Below are positions 3,928 to 24,757 of a DNA stretch of 24,758 nucleotides, one piece after another. The notes beneath the pieces were generated by a model. It was not told where the DNA came from. It was given only the letters and a program-made list of their open reading frames with translations, and did no database searches. The position numbers were made by a program, and so were the translations under genes. Every line of letters starts with the position of its first letter. Position 1 is the stretch's first letter. This DNA comes from a virus, in IMG/VR virus record IMGVR_UViG_3300046007_008960, positions 1 through 24,758 of that record; one strand, written 5' to 3'.

Positions 3928-6176
3928 TAGAATTTACCTACACAATCTACTACCGAAACAATTTGACCCCTGTATCTCTGAAGATCTCTCGCAGTGTCTT
4001 CATCAGTAGCATTACCAAATCTATTTACACACAATACAGGAACGATTTCTGCATTAAATCCAGTGTCACTTTGAATATAAACTCTTGGAACTTCTATAAA
4101 TCCAATTCCAGTATTCACAATTTTTATATCAATTAAAGATCCAACAGAATTAAATCTTGGTTCAAATTGAGCTCCATTAGATGGTTCTACAACAATTTTA
4201 TCTGTCTTAGCATACCCAAATCCAGGATCTTTAATATGAAAATCACATATAAAAGACACTACTGGATATGTACCACTATTAAGTGATGGATTTTTTCCTC
4301 TAATTGGATTAAGGCTATTTGGATCGACAAATGGTATTGTTATTGATTCATCTTTTGATGAAATATATGGTCCCTGACCAGGAAGATTGACCTCATCACC
4401 TACTCTTACATTCATTACTTGACCTGGTTTATATGGTGGATCATACTTTCCGTCAGATCTTTTAACTGTTCCATCTGTTGCTTTTGCCCAAGTATCTCCA
4501 TCCCCACCCCTATCTCCATTATAATAAGGAAGATATCCATATCCAGGGTCAGTCATAACAACTCTCACAACTCCAGTGGTAAATGCTCCAGTTGTTCCAA
4601 TTCCTGCTCCACCAGTTCCAATGCCTGTAGGAACTGGTCCAAGAATTGCGAATGCAGTTGCTCTTGACCCCTTTCCACAATCATCAACGATAGAAACAAA
4701 TGGTGCGGAGTTATAACCAAATCCAGAAGAAACAATATCAACTCCCAATATATCACCAGCTGCTGTAATAATTGCATTTCCAGATGCTCCAGATCCACCG
4801 CCACCAAAGAATTCGACTCTTGGAGGTCCACAGAATATAGGAGCACCATTACAGGTTAGACTATTAAGTACGGAACTGAAGTCTATATTGAAATTAAAAT
4901 TATTAATATCCGTCAAAGATCTAAGACCAGATCCAATTCTTCTGGCATTTTCCATGTATTTGTTAAAATCAATCGTCAAATTTTTACCATTATCATTAGC
5001 ACCACTTAGGAAATTCCATTCTTTTACAGTTGGACATTTTTGCTTTACGTCACAAGTTAAAAAGTCCAATAAAGATTCAACAAAATTGAGAATATCATTT
5101 GTAATATCAATCACTCCTCCTATAATGTCCGATATTGGACCCAAAATATTGCTAAGAGCTCCAGTAATATATCCTAAGAGGTTACCAACTAAAGCACTTA
5201 CAAAATTTTCTATCGCACAGATAGGAGTAAGAATAAATCTATCAATAAATTGTTGTAGGAAATTAGCAATGATGTTTTGCATCCTATCTAATATTCTATT
5301 GAAAAGACATGCAATTAAATCAAGAGCTGTTGCTTGAGCTTCTCTAAGTGCAAATCTTTGATTGAGATATAATAATTGACTTGCTTGGTTAACTTTCTTA
5401 TTTACATATTGCATCGTCCTTTTACGGATCTCTTCAAAAATCCATTTAATATATCCAGAAATTTTTGCTGAAACTGAATTTATTTGTGCTTGAACATCAT
5501 TTATAAAACTTTGACTTGTTACTAGAAAACTATCATCACCTAATAATTCAGTTCTTAGATTTCTAATTTCTTTAATTAAGTTTTTAATATCATTAGTGAT
5601 ACCTTTCATATCGAAAGGTTCGCAAGGAGACGGTATGTTTACCGACAACTCCTTCATTTTTCTTTGATCATCTTTACTTAATTGAACTGGCCAAACTCCA
5701 AGACCTTCAATTAATTTACCATCAGGACTAATTGAGTAATTAGGAACTTTATATGCTCCATTAAAACAAGCAAATCCACTTTTTGGTTTAAATCCAGAAT
5801 CCTTACAAGCTTTTTCTAGTGGAGTTTGTGGATCATTATATTTTGCACCCGTGATTCTTAGGTTTTCCCCATCAAAAATTCCAGTAACAATTGTCCCTTG
5901 GGTATATGTTGATGTTCGCCCATTTCCACCTTGACTACCTCCAGGTGTGGTAATCTCTGCCCAAGGCAAATCAGTCTCCGGAGTATCAGCAGAATGTATT
6001 CCGTAGATTCTAACTTTTACCCTTACTCCCCAACCACCAAGATCCTGAACATCATCAACTAATGCATCAGTAGTATTTTGTCTCCAAGTACTATCAGATG
6101 CAACAATACCATCCCAGAAGATTCCATATCCATCTTTTTGGTTATCGAATGTCTGTCCAGAATAAAGATACGTCAT
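3927..6176 (-). CDS. 5: gp5-like baseplate hub/spike protein with OB-fold, no lysozyme domain (749 aa)
   Basis: Residues ~47-112 match the N-terminal OB-fold of T4 gp5: GVRVKVRIYGIHSADTPETD then LPWAEITTP, a Gly/Ser-rich loop, and GTIVTGIFDGENLRITG. T4 gp5 follows this with a lysozyme domain and a triple-stranded beta-helix; neither is visible here. Instead residues ~190-380 are long amphipathic and hydrophobic helices (FLQQFIDRFILTPICAIENF and on), and residues ~478-715 contain about four degenerate copies of a GxGY/F-x-P-x-V repeat (GFGYNSAPFVSI, GYGYLPY, GFGYAKTDKI, GIGFIEVPRVYI). It follows gp27 and CP12 in the operon with a one-base TGATG overlap, the expected place for the gp27 partner. 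Role: central hub trimer on gp27, tip of the tail tube. The OB-fold call is firm; the function of the rest is inferred. Confidence 0.85.
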   Translation of the reverse strand: MTYLYSGQTFDNQKDGYGIFWDGIVASDSTWRQNTTDALVDDVQDLGGWGVRVKVRIYGIHSADTPETDLPWAEITTPGGSQGGNGRTSTYTQGTIVTGIFDGENLRITGAKYNDPQTPLEKACKDSGFKPKSGFACFNGAYKVPNYSISPDGKLIEGLGVWPVQLSKDDQRKMKELSVNIPSPCEPFDMKGITNDIKNLIKEIRNLRTELLGDDSFLVTSQSFINDVQAQINSVSAKISGYIKWIFEEIRKRTMQYVNKKVNQASQLLYLNQRFALREAQATALDLIACLFNRILDRMQNIIANFLQQFIDRFILTPICAIENFVSALVGNLLGYITGALSNILGPISDIIGGVIDITNDILNFVESLLDFLTCDVKQKCPTVKEWNFLSGANDNGKNLTIDFNKYMENARRIGSGLRSLTDINNFNFNIDFSSVLNSLTCNGAPIFCGPPRVEFFGGGGSGASGNAIITAAGDILGVDIVSSGFGYNSAPFVSIVDDCGKGSRATAFAILGPVPTGIGTGGAGIGTTGAFTTGVVRVVMTDPGYGYLPYYNGDRGGDGDTWAKATDGTVKRSDGKYDPPYKPGQVMNVRVGDEVNLPGQGPYISSKDESITIPFVDPNSLNPIRGKNPSLNSGTYPVVSFICDFHIKDPGFGYAKTDKIVVEPSNGAQFEPRFNSVGSLIDIKIVNTGIGFIEVPRVYIQSDTGFNAEIVPVLCVNRFGNATDEDTARDLQRYRGQIVSVVDCVGKF

Positions 6177-19649: not shown

Positions 19650-20319
19650 TGGGTTTAGTGTTGTGATATACAAATTCTTTGAGATAACGAACTAATAACT
19701 TAATATAATCCCCTTTGTTTCTTTTGTCAAATATTTTTACCTCTCCGCCTGGAGTTACCATAATAGTAATAAGTTTAACTGGAGGTATTTCTGTTAACTC
19801 ATAATAAGCAGCAGCATAAAAAGTTTCTTGAACGAAATAATTTTCAATCCATTCTTCAGGTTTAATTTTTTCAGAAGTCTTAAAGTCAATGACTGCTAAT
19901 TCTCCTTCATATTCAGCGATACAATCTACTCTACCAGCAAGTCCAAGGTATTCGGAGTAAAGTGTTCTTTCAATCGCATGAATATTATTTATCTTATCAA
20001 GATATGGCTTTGCATGATGAAACATGAACTTAGTTAGTGGTTGATAACTTTCCCAATTCAATTCTTTGTTCTCAAGATAATCCTGACAGACTTGGTGAAA
20101 ATCTGTACCTCTCGCAGTTGCTTTTTTAGTAATTGCATTTGCCTTTTCATCACCAACTCTCTTTCGCCATTCAATAAATGTTTGGCGGTTATAGAAAGAA
20201 GTTACGGAGGTAATTGATGGAACCCATTGCCCACTAGGCAATTCATAAAGACGGACTCCGTTTGTTTCTTTTTTATTGAGTTCAAGATCACCCAAATAAT
20301 TACAATGAATAAAACTCAT
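19639..20319 (-). CDS. PD-(D/E)XK exonuclease, MGME1/RecB-like (226 aa)
   Basis: The order of motifs fits the mitochondrial-genome-maintenance exonuclease/RecB nuclease superfamily: VPSITSVTSFYNRQTFIEW, RGTDFHQVCQDYL (H75), AIERTLYSEYLGLAGRVDCI (E117, D132), AVIDFKTSE (D145-x-K147) and QETFYAAAYY (Q164, Y168). These give the D...D-x-K plus QxxxY pattern needed for two-metal catalysis. It probably trims ssDNA or dsDNA ends in phage DNA processing or host DNA degradation. It sits between PhoH and gp33, overlapping both (ATGA; 11 bases). I recognise this gene as common near phoH in T4-like cyanophages. Substrate polarity cannot be seen from sequence. Confidence 0.85.
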   Translation of the reverse strand: MSFIHCNYLGDLELNKKETNGVRLYELPSGQWVPSITSVTSFYNRQTFIEWRKRVGDEKANAITKKATARGTDFHQVCQDYLENKELNWESYQPLTKFMFHHAKPYLDKINNIHAIERTLYSEYLGLAGRVDCIAEYEGELAVIDFKTSEKIKPEEWIENYFVQETFYAAAYYELTEIPPVKLITIMVTPGGEVKIFDKRNKGDYIKLLVRYLKEFVYHNTKPNGE

Positions 20320-21074
20320 AGATTTAATTCCATTTTTGCAATAATATATTCTTTAACGAGCCCAGAGCGAACGATATCTTCAGCACCAAATTCAATAATA
20401 TCAAATGAAGGCATCACACGAAGAATTTTCATAAAATCAATAATTCCATTACGCTCATTCGTTTTGATCAAGTCAGTCTGTGTTGCATCACCGCAGAACA
20501 TAATTTTAGAATTTTCACCAACACGAGTAATAATAGAATCGAGTTCGTGGAAGTTTAAGTTTTGGAATTCATCTACAATAATAATTGCATTATCAAGTGT
20601 AGTTCCTCGAATAAAAGAAGTAGACCAAAAACTAATAGTTCCTTGGGTTTTAAGATTTCCGTAAAGCATTTCAAAAGATGCTTCATCAGGCATCTCAAAC
20701 ATATACTTTACCATATTCTTATATGGAATTTGGTAAAGAGAAGACTTATCTTCATGATCCCCAGGAAGAAATCCAATTTCACGAGTTGCTACAAGAGATC
20801 TTACAATATAAATTTTTTCATATGGAGATCTTTCATCTAAGACATCTCTCAGAGCATTGTAAAAAGTGATGAAAGTTTTACCAGTACCTGCAGCTCCATA
20901 TGCAACTAGATTTTTTCCATCACTATAAGATTCAAATAATTTTTTTTGATTATCCGTGAGAGGATCAATGTCTAAAAGAAGATCCCAATTAATGGGTTTT
21001 TTACGTTTCATCTGCTTAACAGTCATACCAACCCCGATGGGTTGATCACCATTCCTTCTTTTACTTCTAGCCAT
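20316..21074 (-). CDS. phoH: PhoH-like P-loop ATPase (252 aa)
   Basis: It carries Walker A GAAGTGKT (60-67), a Walker B IIIVDEFQN (164-172), KIYIVRSLVATREIGFLPGD (PhoH-characteristic), FWSTSFIRGTTL and FCGDATQTDL, in the normal PhoH order. PhoH-like genes are frequent in marine phages. The function is not firmly known; the host protein is phosphate-starvation-inducible in E. coli and PhoH domains are linked to RNA metabolism. The N-terminus is basic (MARSKRRNG). It is downstream of the FmdB-like gene (5 bases between them) and overlaps the exonuclease by four bases, so PhoH-exonuclease-gp33 probably form one translational unit. Confidence 0.95.
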   Translation of the reverse strand: MARSKRRNGDQPIGVGMTVKQMKRKKPINWDLLLDIDPLTDNQKKLFESYSDGKNLVAYGAAGTGKTFITFYNALRDVLDERSPYEKIYIVRSLVATREIGFLPGDHEDKSSLYQIPYKNMVKYMFEMPDEASFEMLYGNLKTQGTISFWSTSFIRGTTLDNAIIIVDEFQNLNFHELDSIITRVGENSKIMFCGDATQTDLIKTNERNGIIDFMKILRVMPSFDIIEFGAEDIVRSGLVKEYIIAKMELNL

Positions 21075-21079
21075 AAAAT

Positions 21080-21322
21080 TTAGTAAGGTTTAATGTTTGA
21101 TCCTGGAGCTTGTGCTGCTTTTTTAATTACATCATTCCATCCAGGATTTTTTTGAATAAGTTTGGTTTGCCAGTCTCCGACTTCTCCGACACCAGCACAA
21201 CCCTGAGACCAGTCTTTATCCCATTCTGGGTTGTCTTTTCTCCACTGTTCATACTCCACCATAGGCATGTAGAGTTCTTTTGTTTCACCTGTTTTTTGAT
21301 TTTTAACTGGATATGTAGGCAT
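21080..21322 (-). CDS. Small FmdB-like protein, zinc ribbon absent (80 aa)
   Basis: Start at ATG 21322; an in-frame TTG at 21379 would overlap the carbamoyltransferase gene and is less likely. It begins MPTYPVKNQKTGETKELYMP, resembling the N-terminus of FmdB-type regulatory proteins and of small phage proteins found near phoH in T4-like cyanophages, but only one cysteine (in QGCAGVGEVGDW) is present, so there is no zinc ribbon. The C-terminal KNPGWNDVIKKAAQAPGSNI is basic. Role unknown. A TATAAATA box on the minus strand at 21345-21352 lies 23 bases from its ATG. Confidence 0.65.
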   Translation of the reverse strand: MPTYPVKNQKTGETKELYMPMVEYEQWRKDNPEWDKDWSQGCAGVGEVGDWQTKLIQKNPGWNDVIKKAAQAPGSNIKPY

Positions 21323-21344: not shown

Positions 21345-21352
21345 TATTTATA
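21345..21352 (-). promoter_or_regulatory. T4-type late promoter TATAAATA before the FmdB-like gene and phoH
   Basis: The minus strand reads a perfect TATAAATA whose 3' end is 23 bases from the ATG of the 80-residue gene. It overlaps the last codons of the carbamoyltransferase N-domain gene. A late transcript from here would cover the small gene, phoH, the exonuclease and possibly gp33. The 23-base spacing leaves a short leader of around 11 bases, tighter than the 32 bases seen at gp4. Confidence 0.55.
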
Positions 21353-22493
21353 GTTGTTCCCCGAGATATAAATGCTCAAGTTTTCTAATAGTCTTATCTC
21401 TAGTTAAATCCCACCACAAATATCTTGCGGCACCTAGAGAAAGACCACCATCATAAGCAATCGGATCTACAAAAAAATTAACATCAGGAAATGCTTTTAA
21501 GTAGTGATAGTTATTTACGCAATTTAAAAAATATCCTCCAGACAAAACAATATTCTTTGTGTTGCAGACGTTTAGACTCTTTTCTATAAGAAATATTGTA
21601 TGTTCTTTAGTCTCCTCCTGAAGTGTTTTTATAATATCTTTTTGCTCATCTAAAGATCTTTTATCAAAGTATTTTTCAGCAAAAAGTTCATAAACCAAAT
21701 TATTATGAGTTTTTCCGACTCCTCTATTATAAAAAAACCATTTTCCATACTTATCAGTTTTTTTACCATAAGAACTAAAACCCATAACTTTACCAGCATC
21801 AGTTTCTTTATTAAGTCCTAAGGCACGGGTAGCTAAACCAAAAAGACTACCACATCCTACAGAAGTAGAATAAGCATATTGTGCTACTTGGGGTTTTCCA
21901 GAATTTTCTGAGGTAACAGTTTCAATTTTAAAGTCACCTATTTGTTCTTTCCCATAACCATGATCTCCTCTTTGAGAAAAATGTTTAAATCTTTCTTGCA
22001 ATCCATTAGAATAGTCAAAAGAATAAATTGATTCAATCTCTCTAAAAGGTTCTCTGGTTATAAAATCATATCTATTTTCAAAAAAAGTTCCAACCCCATC
22101 AGAAACTAAACAAGCACATTCTTCAAATCCAGAAAAGAAAGCTGCATTAGATGCATGATAAAAATGATGATCATTTTCTCTATAAATTACTTTTTTCCAG
22201 TCAATATCGTTATCTTTAAATCCATTTAAAATGTCGAGTATGATTTCATAATCACTTCCAGCTGGATCTTTATAAGAAGCAAAAATAATATAATCAAGAA
22301 AATTAGTATGTTTTTTTATAGATTCATACTGATAAAATTTAGTAGGTTTTAATCCTTTTCTTCCAGGTCTAGGAAATTCATCATGATGTTTTATCTTACT
22401 TATTCTCTCATCCTCATGATAAAAAACAATTTCACCATCTTTAATTAAGGCACAAGATGAATCATGAGATATGTTAATTCCCAAAATGTACAT
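21348..22493 (-). CDS. Carbamoyltransferase N-terminal (Kae1-like) domain as a separate protein (381 aa)
   Basis: The sequence follows NodU/TobZ-type carbamoyltransferases up to the domain boundary: ILGINISHDSSCALIKDGEI at the start, HHFYHASNAAFFSG (H109, H110, H113: the metal site), CLVSDGVGTFFENRYDF, YSTSVGCGSLFGLATRALGL, GKVMGFSSYG, VLSGGYFLNCVNNY and DGGLSLGAARYLWW. It stops at HLYLGEQL, about where the Kae1-like domain normally joins the YrdC-like domain. The YrdC-like half is a separate gene immediately upstream, with TAATG one-base overlap. Single-chain members are around 500-600 residues; the two products add up to 578. The product would transfer a carbamoyl group to an acceptor hydroxyl. 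The acceptor is unknown. Confidence 0.85.
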   Translation of the reverse strand: MYILGINISHDSSCALIKDGEIVFYHEDERISKIKHHDEFPRPGRKGLKPTKFYQYESIKKHTNFLDYIIFASYKDPAGSDYEIILDILNGFKDNDIDWKKVIYRENDHHFYHASNAAFFSGFEECACLVSDGVGTFFENRYDFITREPFREIESIYSFDYSNGLQERFKHFSQRGDHGYGKEQIGDFKIETVTSENSGKPQVAQYAYSTSVGCGSLFGLATRALGLNKETDAGKVMGFSSYGKKTDKYGKWFFYNRGVGKTHNNLVYELFAEKYFDKRSLDEQKDIIKTLQEETKEHTIFLIEKSLNVCNTKNIVLSGGYFLNCVNNYHYLKAFPDVNFFVDPIAYDGGLSLGAARYLWWDLTRDKTIRKLEHLYLGEQL

Positions 22494-23086
22494 TAAACAT
22501 TCTCCTCTATTACTAATTTCATTATTTCAGGTAAAAATAAATACTCAATTTCAGATCTCTTTAAAGTATCTATAGCATCATCAATCGTTTCGACTAATGT
22601 TTCTCCCCCCAAATTGAAAGAAGTATTAAAAATGATAGGGACATCAGTTTTTTGATAAAAAGATTCTATCAAGTTATAATAATGATAATTTTGTTTTCTT
22701 GTTACGGTCTGTAATCTACAAGTATCATCAACATGAATAATTCCAGGTATTAGATGTTTTTTGTTAGGAAGAACTTCTAAAGCATAGGACATAAATGGAC
22801 TTTCATCAAGACCAGCCATATCAAACCACTCATGGGCATATTCGAGCATCATTGATCCAGCAAATGGTCTAAACCATTCTCTTTTTTTAATTTTATTTAC
22901 GTGATCTTTAGCATTTGGATCACGAGGATCATAAAGAATAGAACGATTTCCAAGAGCTCGTGGACCAGCTTCACATCTTCCCTGATATATTGCAACAATA
23001 TTTTTTCCAATTAATAAATCAGAAACGTCAGAGTAATCTGCATCTATAATATTGTTTACTTTCAAAATTATTTCTTCTAATTTCAT
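22493..23086 (-). CDS. Carbamoyltransferase C-terminal (YrdC-like) domain as a separate protein (197 aa)
   Basis: It carries the C-terminal motifs of NodU/TobZ-type enzymes in order: YQGRCEAGPRALGNRSILYD (34-53), KREWFRPFAGSMMLE (68-82), IHVDDTCRLQTV (117-128) and NTSFNLGGETLVET (154-167). In the TobZ model this YrdC-like domain makes carbamoyl-adenylate from carbamoyl phosphate and ATP, for transfer in the Kae1-like domain. The gene precedes the Kae1-like gene, the reverse of the normal protein order. It starts with its own ATG at 23086, two bases after ThyX, and overlaps the next gene by one base. A short N-terminal helix precedes the domain and could mediate pairing with the partner. It looks intact, not like decay debris. 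Confidence 0.85.
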   Translation of the reverse strand: MKLEEIILKVNNIIDADYSDVSDLLIGKNIVAIYQGRCEAGPRALGNRSILYDPRDPNAKDHVNKIKKREWFRPFAGSMMLEYAHEWFDMAGLDESPFMSYALEVLPNKKHLIPGIIHVDDTCRLQTVTRKQNYHYYNLIESFYQKTDVPIIFNTSFNLGGETLVETIDDAIDTLKRSEIEYLFLPEIMKLVIEENV

Positions 23087-23088
23087 TT

Positions 23089-23805
23089 TTATTCAATAGT
23101 AATCGATGGAGCATCTACACATTCTAAACATCCATTCCGAGTCCAACCAAGTGCTTCCGATACCGCTGGAAATTTGCAAGTAAAGATACAACGAACCAGT
23201 TCAGCAATTTCCATATGTTCTTTTTGAGTTCCGTGTGATGAACGAAGATCAATATAGTGAATCCAAGAACGCACAGAACCAGTCATATAAAGGCGTGTAG
23301 GCGTCGCTAAAGGCAATACAAACCTTGCACACTCTTTTGCTACTCCTGCATCTAGAAGACGATTGTAGAGGCGCAGAGAGTGTTCAAAATGAACACGAAT
23401 ATCTTCAGTCAAAACTAGATTCAGATAATCAGGAATATCATCAATACTGTTCTGACGATTCTTGGTATCCTGTCTGCGAAGTTCGGGAAGAGGAATTGTT
23501 TTACTTAGAAGATTCGTATCAGCATATCGTTGCGAAAATTCTTGATATGTAAATGAACGATGCCTTAGAATCTGTGCTGCAATACCACGAGTGGTATTAA
23601 TCTCCACAGTCATACTTGCTTGCTCAAAAATGCTCCAGTGTTGATGCTGAATACAATACTTAAGCAATCCAGAAAACTTTTCGTTCTCTTGATTTGATGG
23701 ATTGCTTACTCTAGCACAATAAGCCATATGCTTTTCTGCATCAGGAGTAACGCTGATAAGTTTAACTTCTGGCTTCATAAATTCAAAATCAATCGGGGTA
23801 TCCAT
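23089..23805 (-). CDS. thyX: ThyX, FAD-dependent thymidylate synthase (238 aa)
   Basis: It has the diagnostic RHRx7S motif: RHRSFTYQEFS (81-91 from the chosen start), preceded by ISVTPDAEKHMAYCARVSNP and HWSIFEQASMTVEINTTRGI, and followed by LDAGVAKECARFVLPLATPT and SWIHYIDLRSSHGTQKEHME, all as in ThyX. The reaction is dUMP to dTMP using methylene-tetrahydrofolate, FAD and NADPH. The start is a cluster ATGGAGATGATGATGGAT; GGAG lies six bases before the last ATG of the cluster at 23805, which I chose. ATG 23817 and, further in, ATG 23778 (MKPEVKL) are possible. Overlaps the upstream small gene. ThyX is common in marine cyanophages for dTTP supply, and the two carbamoyltransferase-domain genes follow it. 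Confidence 0.95.
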   Translation of the reverse strand: MDTPIDFEFMKPEVKLISVTPDAEKHMAYCARVSNPSNQENEKFSGLLKYCIQHQHWSIFEQASMTVEINTTRGIAAQILRHRSFTYQEFSQRYADTNLLSKTIPLPELRRQDTKNRQNSIDDIPDYLNLVLTEDIRVHFEHSLRLYNRLLDAGVAKECARFVLPLATPTRLYMTGSVRSWIHYIDLRSSHGTQKEHMEIAELVRCIFTCKFPAVSEALGWTRNGCLECVDAPSITIE

Positions 23806-23968
23806 CATCATCTCCATCGTAAAATACTTCGTCGTAATCTGTAATATAATTGTTAATTTTTTCTTGTGTTGTTTTATATGAATCTAAATCAGAATAAACT
23901 TCCGATTTTAAACAATCTACTAGAGATTCAAGATTCTGTACAATCAATTTTAATTTTTCCCTATCCAT
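23789..23968 (-). CDS. Small acidic protein beside thyX, unknown function (59 aa)
   Basis: Start at ATG 23968; the in-frame GTG at 24004 would overlap the methyltransferase-like gene much more. The product has a basic N-terminal half (MDREKLKLIVQNLESLVDCL) and an acidic C-terminal end (VFYDGDDDGYPD), both helical in part. I recognise it as a small protein that lies next to thyX in several marine T4-like phages, without a known role. It overlaps the upstream methyltransferase gene by eight bases and the thyX start cluster at its 3' end. Confidence 0.6.
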   Translation of the reverse strand: MDREKLKLIVQNLESLVDCLKSEVYSDLDSYKTTQEKINNYITDYDEVFYDGDDDGYPD

Positions 23969-24725
23969 ATTGCTTGTTGTTTTGGTATATCCTAAACATC
24001 TCACCTATTTTATCAGATTTATGCATAAAAATAAACATTTCTAAAACATCTGGTGAAATTTCTGGGAGAGTCTGTAAATTATATTTTTTTTTCAAATCTA
24101 GATAAATTTCATGAAAATTTAAATACTCTTGGGTGAATCTATATCTGGGAGAGATTTTATTATTAAATGGGAGAGCTAAAAGCTTTGGATTGCAATATCT
24201 TAAACCAATTTCATATATTATTGATTCAAATGGCCAAAACCACAATGTTTCATGTTTGATATTTTTATGAACGGTATAAACATTATTAATTATGTCTTTA
24301 GAATCATGATGTTCATAATGATCCAACAATAAGGTATCACACTTACCAAAATATTCATTTGCATCGCAATGTATTAATTCTATATTGTCTAAAAATGGAG
24401 ATTTAATATGTTGATGATATTCAATTACTTCTTTATTTTTTTCTAATACTGTTATTTTGGAAACGTTCTTTTTTGTTAACAACCAATTTTCTCTTATTCC
24501 AAATCCAAGTCCGCTACAAATACAATGCCCTTCAGCCAAATAATAATGAGAAAAGAGATGATATGCTTCTAGATGAGTTTCTAGATTATAGGACATCCAT
24601 TGCTCACCATTAACCTTTAAAACAAATCCAGACGAATTTTCCCATTTTTCAACCTCTAAAGATCCTTTGCTAAAAGGTTCTATTTTAGGGACATCATAAT
24701 TTAACATTTTTAAAAGATCTAACAT
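23961..24725 (-). CDS. SAM-dependent methyltransferase-like protein (254 aa)
   Basis: The central part has a Rossmann-type motif I CSGLGFGIRENWLL (GLGFG at 72-76), an acidic motif II end in ITVLEKNKEV (E95), LIHCDANEYFG and TLLLDHYEHHD, the class I methyltransferase order, also seen in spermidine-synthase-like folds. The target is not predictable. ATG 24725 is chosen because AGGAG lies seven bases upstream; an in-frame TTG at 24755 extends the frame without support. The C-terminal ~70 residues are helical and basic with no known signature. It could modify nucleic acid, protein or a small molecule. It is followed by an eight-base overlap into the next small gene, then thyX and the carbamoyltransferase pair. 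Confidence 0.7.
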   Translation of the reverse strand: MLDLLKMLNYDVPKIEPFSKGSLEVEKWENSSGFVLKVNGEQWMSYNLETHLEAYHLFSHYYLAEGHCICSGLGFGIRENWLLTKKNVSKITVLEKNKEVIEYHQHIKSPFLDNIELIHCDANEYFGKCDTLLLDHYEHHDSKDIINNVYTVHKNIKHETLWFWPFESIIYEIGLRYCNPKLLALPFNNKISPRYRFTQEYLNFHEIYLDLKKKYNLQTLPEISPDVLEMFIFMHKSDKIGEMFRIYQNNKQYG

Positions 24726-24757
24726 TAGCAAACTCCTATGTATGATTGAGACCAATT
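24724..24757 (-). CDS. Possible C-terminal end of an upstream gene cut by the window edge
   Basis: A minus-strand frame coming in from the right edge would read NWSQSYIGVC and stop at a TAA that overlaps the methyltransferase ATG by one base (TAATG), a junction style used repeatedly in this genome. Only ten residues are visible, so this is a weak call made from junction geometry alone. Confidence 0.3.

Follow-up and report, generated by a model that had tools for sequence, protein, structure and literature searches.

Class III O-carbamoyltransferases of the NodU/TobZ/GdmN type consist of one chain in which a Kae1-like domain comes first and a YrdC-like domain second. For GdmN, the metal ligands His, His, Asp and Asp and the general-base His of the Kae1-like domain have been named, and this domain binds the acceptor (PMC9633730). 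Two other systems pair the same kinds of domain. HypF carries a YrdC-like domain before a Kae1-like domain (PMC9654439) in a single chain with acylphosphatase and zinc domains, and its domains belong to other sequence families. In t6A synthesis, TsaC and TsaD are YrdC-like and Kae1-like proteins that are made from separate genes and act in sequence. Among phages, a 5-hydroxymethylcytosine carbamoyltransferase of the TobZ type is encoded as one 63-kDa ORF together with a ThyA-type gene (PMC8670742), and cyanophage carbamoyltransferases of 1524-1803 bp were listed by Sullivan 2010 (PMC3037559). In two other cyanophage papers (PMC9146016, PMC10436341), the name carbamoyltransferase is taken to denote a pyrimidine synthesis enzyme; the S-MS29 gene so named was of the PF02543/PF16861 type by our matches, and the pyrimidine label looks mistaken there.

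The stretch of DNA analyzed here (the window), an IMG/VR record 24,758 bases long, comes from a virus of marine bacteria and also encodes a phage tail tube, baseplate and DNA end protector. Profile searches revealed two adjacent minus-strand genes, both with ATG start codons, that match the two halves of a TobZ-type enzyme. The first gene (22493-23086, minus strand, 197 aa) encodes the YrdC-like half, hereafter C, and matched Carbam_trans_C (PF16861) with an E-value of 1.3e-58 over profile positions 2-166 of 170. The second gene (21348-22493, minus strand, 381 aa) encodes the Kae1-like half, hereafter N, and matched Carbam_trans_N (PF02543) with an E-value of 1.5e-20 in two stretches, profile positions 2-42 and 121-345 of 346. 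Both halves passed the curated cut-offs, with 197.7 bits versus 27 for C and 74.4 bits versus 24 for N. The PHROGs label of both was 'Nol-like carbamoyltransferase': within the 528 positions of phrog_1601, N covered positions 1-334 (E 2e-57) and C covered positions 353-526, and C additionally matched a separate family, phrog_20469. As judged from these matches, the two genes jointly span one complete predicted class III O-carbamoyltransferase that is cut between its domains. A preliminary description, made from the sequence alone, had proposed such a split enzyme with the YrdC-like gene first, intact starts and motifs and a cut at the domain boundary, and the searches bear it out in each of these respects.

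The two genes overlap by one base in a TAATG stretch (22491-22495, minus strand), also as described earlier; the TAA stop codon of C was read from the sequence at 22495-22493 and the ATG start codon of N at 22493-22491, with base 22493 common to both. A GAGGAG Shine-Dalgarno-like stretch is located 8 bases 5' of the N start codon, within the 3' end of the C gene. The KxR...SxN motif residues K67, R69, S156 and N158 were present in C, and H10 and the metal ligands H109, H113, D132 and D348 were present in N, where the GdmN numbering was matched to window residues by our own alignment. The window therefore resembles NodU, TobZ and GdmN in both domain families, the metal ligands and the motif, but it differs from them in being two genes in reversed order and in that N outnumbers C in many related loci. 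It likewise differs from HypF in consisting of two ORFs, which matched just the Carbam_trans families at E-values of up to 0.1, and from TsaC and TsaD, since the TsaC (YrdC/Sua5) and TsaD families gave no match to the window halves at E-values of up to 0.1.

Upstream of C and outside the enzyme lies a gene for ThyX (23089-23817, minus strand; PF02511, E 6.4e-47). Downstream of N, a small transcriptional regulator (21080-21322, minus strand; phrog_385, E 8.3e-33) and PhoH (20316-21074, minus strand; PF02562, E 1.8e-42) are encoded, so that the minus-strand order in the window is ThyX, C, N, small regulator and PhoH. An ORF upstream of ThyX (window positions 23961-24755) showed a weak methyltransferase match (phrog_15480, 1.6e-05).

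Of the 47 phage records in which N was matched, tblastn coordinates place C directly upstream of N in at least 10. These ten comprise five records of S-RIM44, two of S-SCSM1, and Sf-FP1, Sf-CH3 and the single-cell virus AG-345-D19; S-RIM44, S-SCSM1, Sf-FP1 and Sf-CH3 are isolated cyanophages, and four of the five sources, AG-345-D19 included, were inspected more closely. The order in S-RIM44 and Sf-FP1 is ThyX, C, N, regulator and PhoH, with the Sf-FP1 regulator annotated as hypothetical and recognized by profile, and the order in S-SCSM1 is ThyX, C, N, C, N, nucleotide-sugar epimerase, regulator and PhoH. AG-345-D19 is deposited without annotation, and C followed by N was read from its sequence. 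When whole genomes were searched, S-RIM44 and Sf-FP1 each contained one PF16861 match, located in the separate C gene, which is thus the sole copy in these two complete genomes; the matches in S-SCSM1 were two separate C genes and one in a 526-aa frame, and a 192.7-kb contig (G013) contained one C match and one N match. Chance is excluded because the arrangement recurs in isolated phages and in many contigs. An assembly error was ruled out on the same grounds, as separately deposited phage genomes and many contigs show the same order. The preliminary description had named a fused relative in normal order, combined with an assembly rearrangement in the window, as evidence that would speak against its reading; fused relatives in normal order proved to be common, but the order recurs in independent genomes and is not a rearrangement.

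In S-RIM44 (NC_047734.1; L003:4001-5086), the deposited N CDS starts at 4076, while the homologous start is at 4001; the annotated protein is thereby 25 residues short at its N-terminus, and the conserved His10 is among those missing. In S-SCSM2R (L007:4001-5590), the gene of a fused N-C carbamoyltransferase bears the deposited label '2OG-Fe(II) oxygenase'. Among the matches listed in our searches of the open-access literature, no paper was seen to describe a split, reversed arrangement, and the name S-SCSM1 was absent from the papers listed. The arrangement is present in deposited records yet, as far as we searched, undiscussed in this literature.

To survey gene architecture, 336 stretches were compiled from four viral-contig scans, six phage regions, one genome-contig scan and the window, and dereplication at 98% identity yielded 150 viral and 80 cellular representatives. 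The viral counts hold as far as the contigs reach and are shaped by the queries, and they do not represent natural frequencies. C-N was the sole arrangement in 37 of the 150 viral representatives, and tandem arrays were found in 21 (C-N-C-N in 15, C-N-C-N-N in 3, C-N-N-C-N in 2 and C-N-C in 1). The halves were split in normal order (N-C) in 17 of 150 and arranged as N-C-N or N-C...N in 2, and 14 contained N only. The fused enzyme (NC) was alone in 40, accompanied by a separate N in 10 and doubled (NC-NC) in 5; a C cut by the contig end preceded N in 3 and was alone in 1. The window locus, first seen as a single odd case, is one member of a widespread set.

Within the C-N-only class, ThyX or the regulator was located directly before C in 33 of 37 loci; the exceptions were L145, L152, L158 and L165, the last two of which start close to the end of a contig. 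The sequences of L026, L037 and L131 stop within N or directly behind it, and further genes may follow there. In the N-only class, the regulator was directly before N in 12 of 14; the contigs of the other two, L190 and L251, start inside N or close to it, so their C may be missing just by truncation. N outnumbered C in 29 of the 150 viral loci as seen (12 + 10 + 3 + 2 + 2), some of which, such as L046, L136, L160 and L174, are followed by a contig end. C outnumbered N in two, namely L132, whose contig ends 27 bases past the second C, and L082, whose C is cut. In the scan with the C query, N was beside C in 79 of 80 loci, the exception being L082. The largest sets of halves at one locus, three N and two C, were observed in L160, L174, L172, L252 and L136. 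The N-C and N-C-N sets of L028, L193, L194 and L195 lie elsewhere, near clamp loader, Hsp20 and translation repressor families.

In the cells sampled, TobZ-type enzymes are as a rule fused. The 80 cellular loci, which are the 80 best genome loci, contained no case of a separate C immediately followed by a separate N; in L302, N and then C occupy overlapping frames, and in L335, N is broken over three frames. In L322, the end of the contig truncates a C fragment that lies about 2 kb before a fused NC, and the separate C of G004 likewise extends past the end of its contig. Among 117 genomes of the hosts' phylum (that of G022), 20 contained C, and all 22 of 22 matches were in frames of at least 489 aa. 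In the phylum of G018, 92 of 200 further genomes contained C, with more matches than the 150 listed; of those listed, 4 were in frames shorter than 450 aa: that of G018 itself, the genome with the broken gene of L335, that of G215, which runs off a contig end, and those of G214 and G294, which are near contig starts by their coordinates. We read the phyla of G022 and G018 as cyanobacteria and Pseudomonadota, respectively.

Since fused relatives are common among related phages, the two halves could be relics of a broken fused enzyme. This is extremely unlikely in light of the complete catalytic residues, the selection on both genes, the recurrence of the arrangement in divergent phages and the sole C in two complete genomes. 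H10, H109, H113, D132 and D348 were invariant in 14 aligned reversed N proteins. In N located after a C, H109, H113 and D132 were kept in 82 of 82, H10 in 81 of 82 (Asn in one) and D348 in 79 of 82, with three gaps; in C located before an N, K67, R69, S156 and N158 were kept in 81 of 81. The five N residues were also kept in all 15 proteins formed by the N-only class (14) and the third N of L234, apart from one gap at H10. In 11 hand-picked locus pairs, some with missing genes and with one N comparison that gave no value, all values obtained for dN/dS were below 1; the window compared with L011 gave 0.03 (C) and 0.42 (N). Both halves are therefore under purifying selection, in agreement with the earlier view that decay was unlikely.

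The two genes are tightly spaced. With the start codon taken as the one nearest the domain start, the C-N gap ranged from -13 to +6 bases in 82 neighbors measured, 58 of which overlapped. These overlaps, and the in-frame single stop codons seen in some loci, might be taken as signs of a programmed frameshift or read-through that joins C and N into a single chain. However, the spacing varies over this range and C and N share one frame in just 9 of the 82 neighbors, and we regard such a joined product as scarcely credible.

To understand how the reversed order arose, trees of the domains were inspected, in which N domains shorter than 240 aa, C domains shorter than 150 aa and near-copies were excluded and the bacterial rows were a random sample plus named ones, with most others left out. 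In the N tree of 109 rows, 50 separate N (reversed, normal-order and N-only) formed one set that included none of the fused rows (SH-aLRT 95), a further set united second N from tandem arrays with adjoining additional N (97), the extra N of fused-plus-N loci formed a third (100), and L006 stood apart on a long branch. In a tree of 51 rows, obtained by removing 58 of the 109 rows by hand, the first set contained 28 rows (100/99) and the second 6 rows (95/85). Of the 10 rows from fused phage enzymes, 8 grouped with the first set (98/92). This position of the fused rows indicates that N was separated repeatedly, or that it passed through a fused state in the meantime. In the 51-row tree, the N of the normal-order split loci formed one group (100/99) nested in the first set, including the second N of L028; in the 109-row tree, the first N of L234 was outside this group. 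Two N-only rows of the 51-row tree were located inside the group of C-N pairs from the regulator-PhoH site (100/99), and since they are nested among pairs from the same place, their C was probably lost.

The two N of L028, which has the order N-C-N, were sisters in both trees (100/99 in the 51-row tree and 99 in the 109-row tree). Loss of the first N from such a locus would leave C-N, and among the routes to the reversed order that these loci reveal, none is simpler. The preliminary description offered two interpretations, a two-subunit enzyme or a permuted fusion that was later split. The former probably holds, while the latter fared poorly. HypF shows that YrdC followed by Kae1 in one chain can exist (PMC9654439), but a single ORF with C before N was found in none of the 150 viral and 80 cellular genome representatives, and L028 with its sister N offers a simpler path. 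We consider a permuted C-N fusion as the first step very unlikely; the reversal probably came about when an N was acquired on the far side of C and the previous N disappeared.

The genomic site was compared among phages with and without the pair. ThyX, the regulator and PhoH were present without C or N in five records, S-RIM2, ACG-2014f, MA10, ACG-2014a and AG-345-O18, and the C-N pair is a cassette inserted in this ThyX-regulator-PhoH backbone. The cassette is between ThyX and the regulator in loci of the window type and between the regulator and PhoH in others. N-only genes are also located between the regulator and PhoH; such a C-less N with the full catalytic residues is seen in L345 (G001) and in 12 representatives, for example L186, L219 and L236. 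Ten N-only contigs were searched whole: four of them (24-119 kb) contained at least one fused NC, and no C was seen in the remaining six (5.9-28 kb).

The proximity of ThyX raised the question of whether the pair acts with it to carbamoylate a hydroxymethyl pyrimidine in phage DNA. A fused phage relative that is accompanied by a thymidylate-synthase homologue does make 5-carbamoyloxymethylcytosine (PMC8670742). The pair in the window is instead split and beside ThyX, and a search for the ThyA/dCMP-hydroxymethylase family, PF00303, gave a match in 0 of 7 records, comprising three whole phage genomes and four metagenome records (the window included) that are possibly fragments. ThyX also occupies this site in the five records without the pair, which weakened its candidacy as a functional partner, and some pairs lie between the regulator and PhoH. 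A DNA-base acceptor thus appears improbable. For the predicted acceptor, a sugar would be our first guess. A nucleotide-sugar epimerase gene was present in 10 loci, all of them among the 21 tandem representatives; this argument is weakened because ACG-2014f, which has the empty site, also has a nucleotide-sugar epimerase near ThyX. Neighbors of the fused-plus-N loci matched PfkB-type kinase, heptose kinase/adenylyltransferase, tryptophan halogenase and 2OG-Fe(II) oxygenase families, in one representative each.

Structure models were compared with known enzymes. The predicted model of L054, a natural fused phage relative, had a pTM of 0.90 and TM-scores of 0.75-0.82 against TobZ, VtdB, GdmN and NovN; with TobZ in particular, the folds were alike over most of the length (TM 0.75-0.78). 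Co-folding of the two halves, a check proposed in the preliminary description, was approached with a read-through single chain of a relative, the C-N locus L129, in which the one-residue link may forbid the natural arrangement. The model gave a mean pLDDT of 88.9 and a pTM of 0.71, which by our estimate hardly exceeds the value expected from a single confident domain (361 of 549 residues); in this model, each domain was predicted with confidence and their mutual placing was not. The L129 N domain showed Z-scores of 28-29 with GdmN, NovN and TobZ versus about 21 with TsaD, and both domains of the chain could be aligned with HypF only at an rmsd of 23. Of the alignment columns that never vary among fused phage enzymes, 34 of 41 in C and 23 of 28 in N were kept at 80% or more in the reversed halves, and the corresponding numbers in bacteria were 29 of 41 and 21 of 28; this conservation is compatible with a kept interface and is no proof of one.

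Divergence of the two halves was also compared, with 4 of 26 single loci and 1 of 18 tandem loci left out beforehand. The mean between-locus distance was about twofold higher for N (0.87) than for C (0.43). Because the Kae1-like domain binds the acceptor, this faster divergence fits N as the acceptor-specific part. C and N distances were correlated across 22 loci (r 0.77), and the correlation persisted when ThyX, PhoH and regulator distances were removed (partial Mantel r 0.58, p 0.0005; 22 of 26 loci). This correlation favors a bond between the halves, although joint transfer of the cassette would look alike. In the 17 tandem loci, correlations among the first C (C1), first N (N2), second C (C3) and second N (N4) were all 0.92 or more; C3 tracked N2 (0.64) better than N4 (0.17), and consequently the tandem neighbors cannot be matched into pairs.

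These data bear on whether the halves form a stable complex. If they did not, C would release carbamoyl-AMP, N would take it from solution, and gene order would be free to change. The labile order seen here (C-N, N-C, N-C-N and N alone) and the C-N chain model without a confident domain arrangement are in keeping with this, as is the fact that TsaC/Sua5 make their intermediate independently of TsaD/Kae1 (PMC9654439). On the other hand, TobZ and HypF channel the intermediate between domains (PMC9654439), and the tight spacing in 82 neighbors and the co-divergence of C and N fit a fixed partnership. We regard a freely diffusing intermediate as rather unlikely.

The explanation that we consider likely is a two-component class III O-carbamoyltransferase whose gene order was shaped by gain and loss of N. 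The roles proposed for its halves follow the chemistry described for YrdC-like and Kae1-like domains (PMC9633730, PMC9654439); catalysis, contact between the subunits, sharing of C and the acceptor are what we infer beyond the observations. The YrdC-like subunit, the first gene product, would form carbamoyl-AMP from carbamoyl phosphate and ATP, and the Kae1-like subunit, the second, would hold the metal and the acceptor and move the carbamoyl group to a hydroxyl. C and N would be translated together across the stop-start overlap. The Kae1-like half would be the acceptor-specific, faster-evolving part, which related phages carry in duplicate, on its own or next to a fused enzyme, and one adenylating half may serve several acceptor halves. 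A point against this explanation is that some N halves, those of N-only loci, could use another activating enzyme. As a more tentative extension, cyanophages might possess a kit in which a free C serves several exchangeable N, even N without an adjoining C, and in which added N set the range of acceptors.

The architecture of these loci suggests that the two halves of the enzyme are interchangeable working parts. Natural separate halves in both orders, together with the loci in which N is in excess, provide material to test a channelled against a diffusing intermediate. The same loci offer a testbed for one adenylating part that serves several acceptors, and for how a two-domain enzyme can change its order without passing through a permuted fusion.
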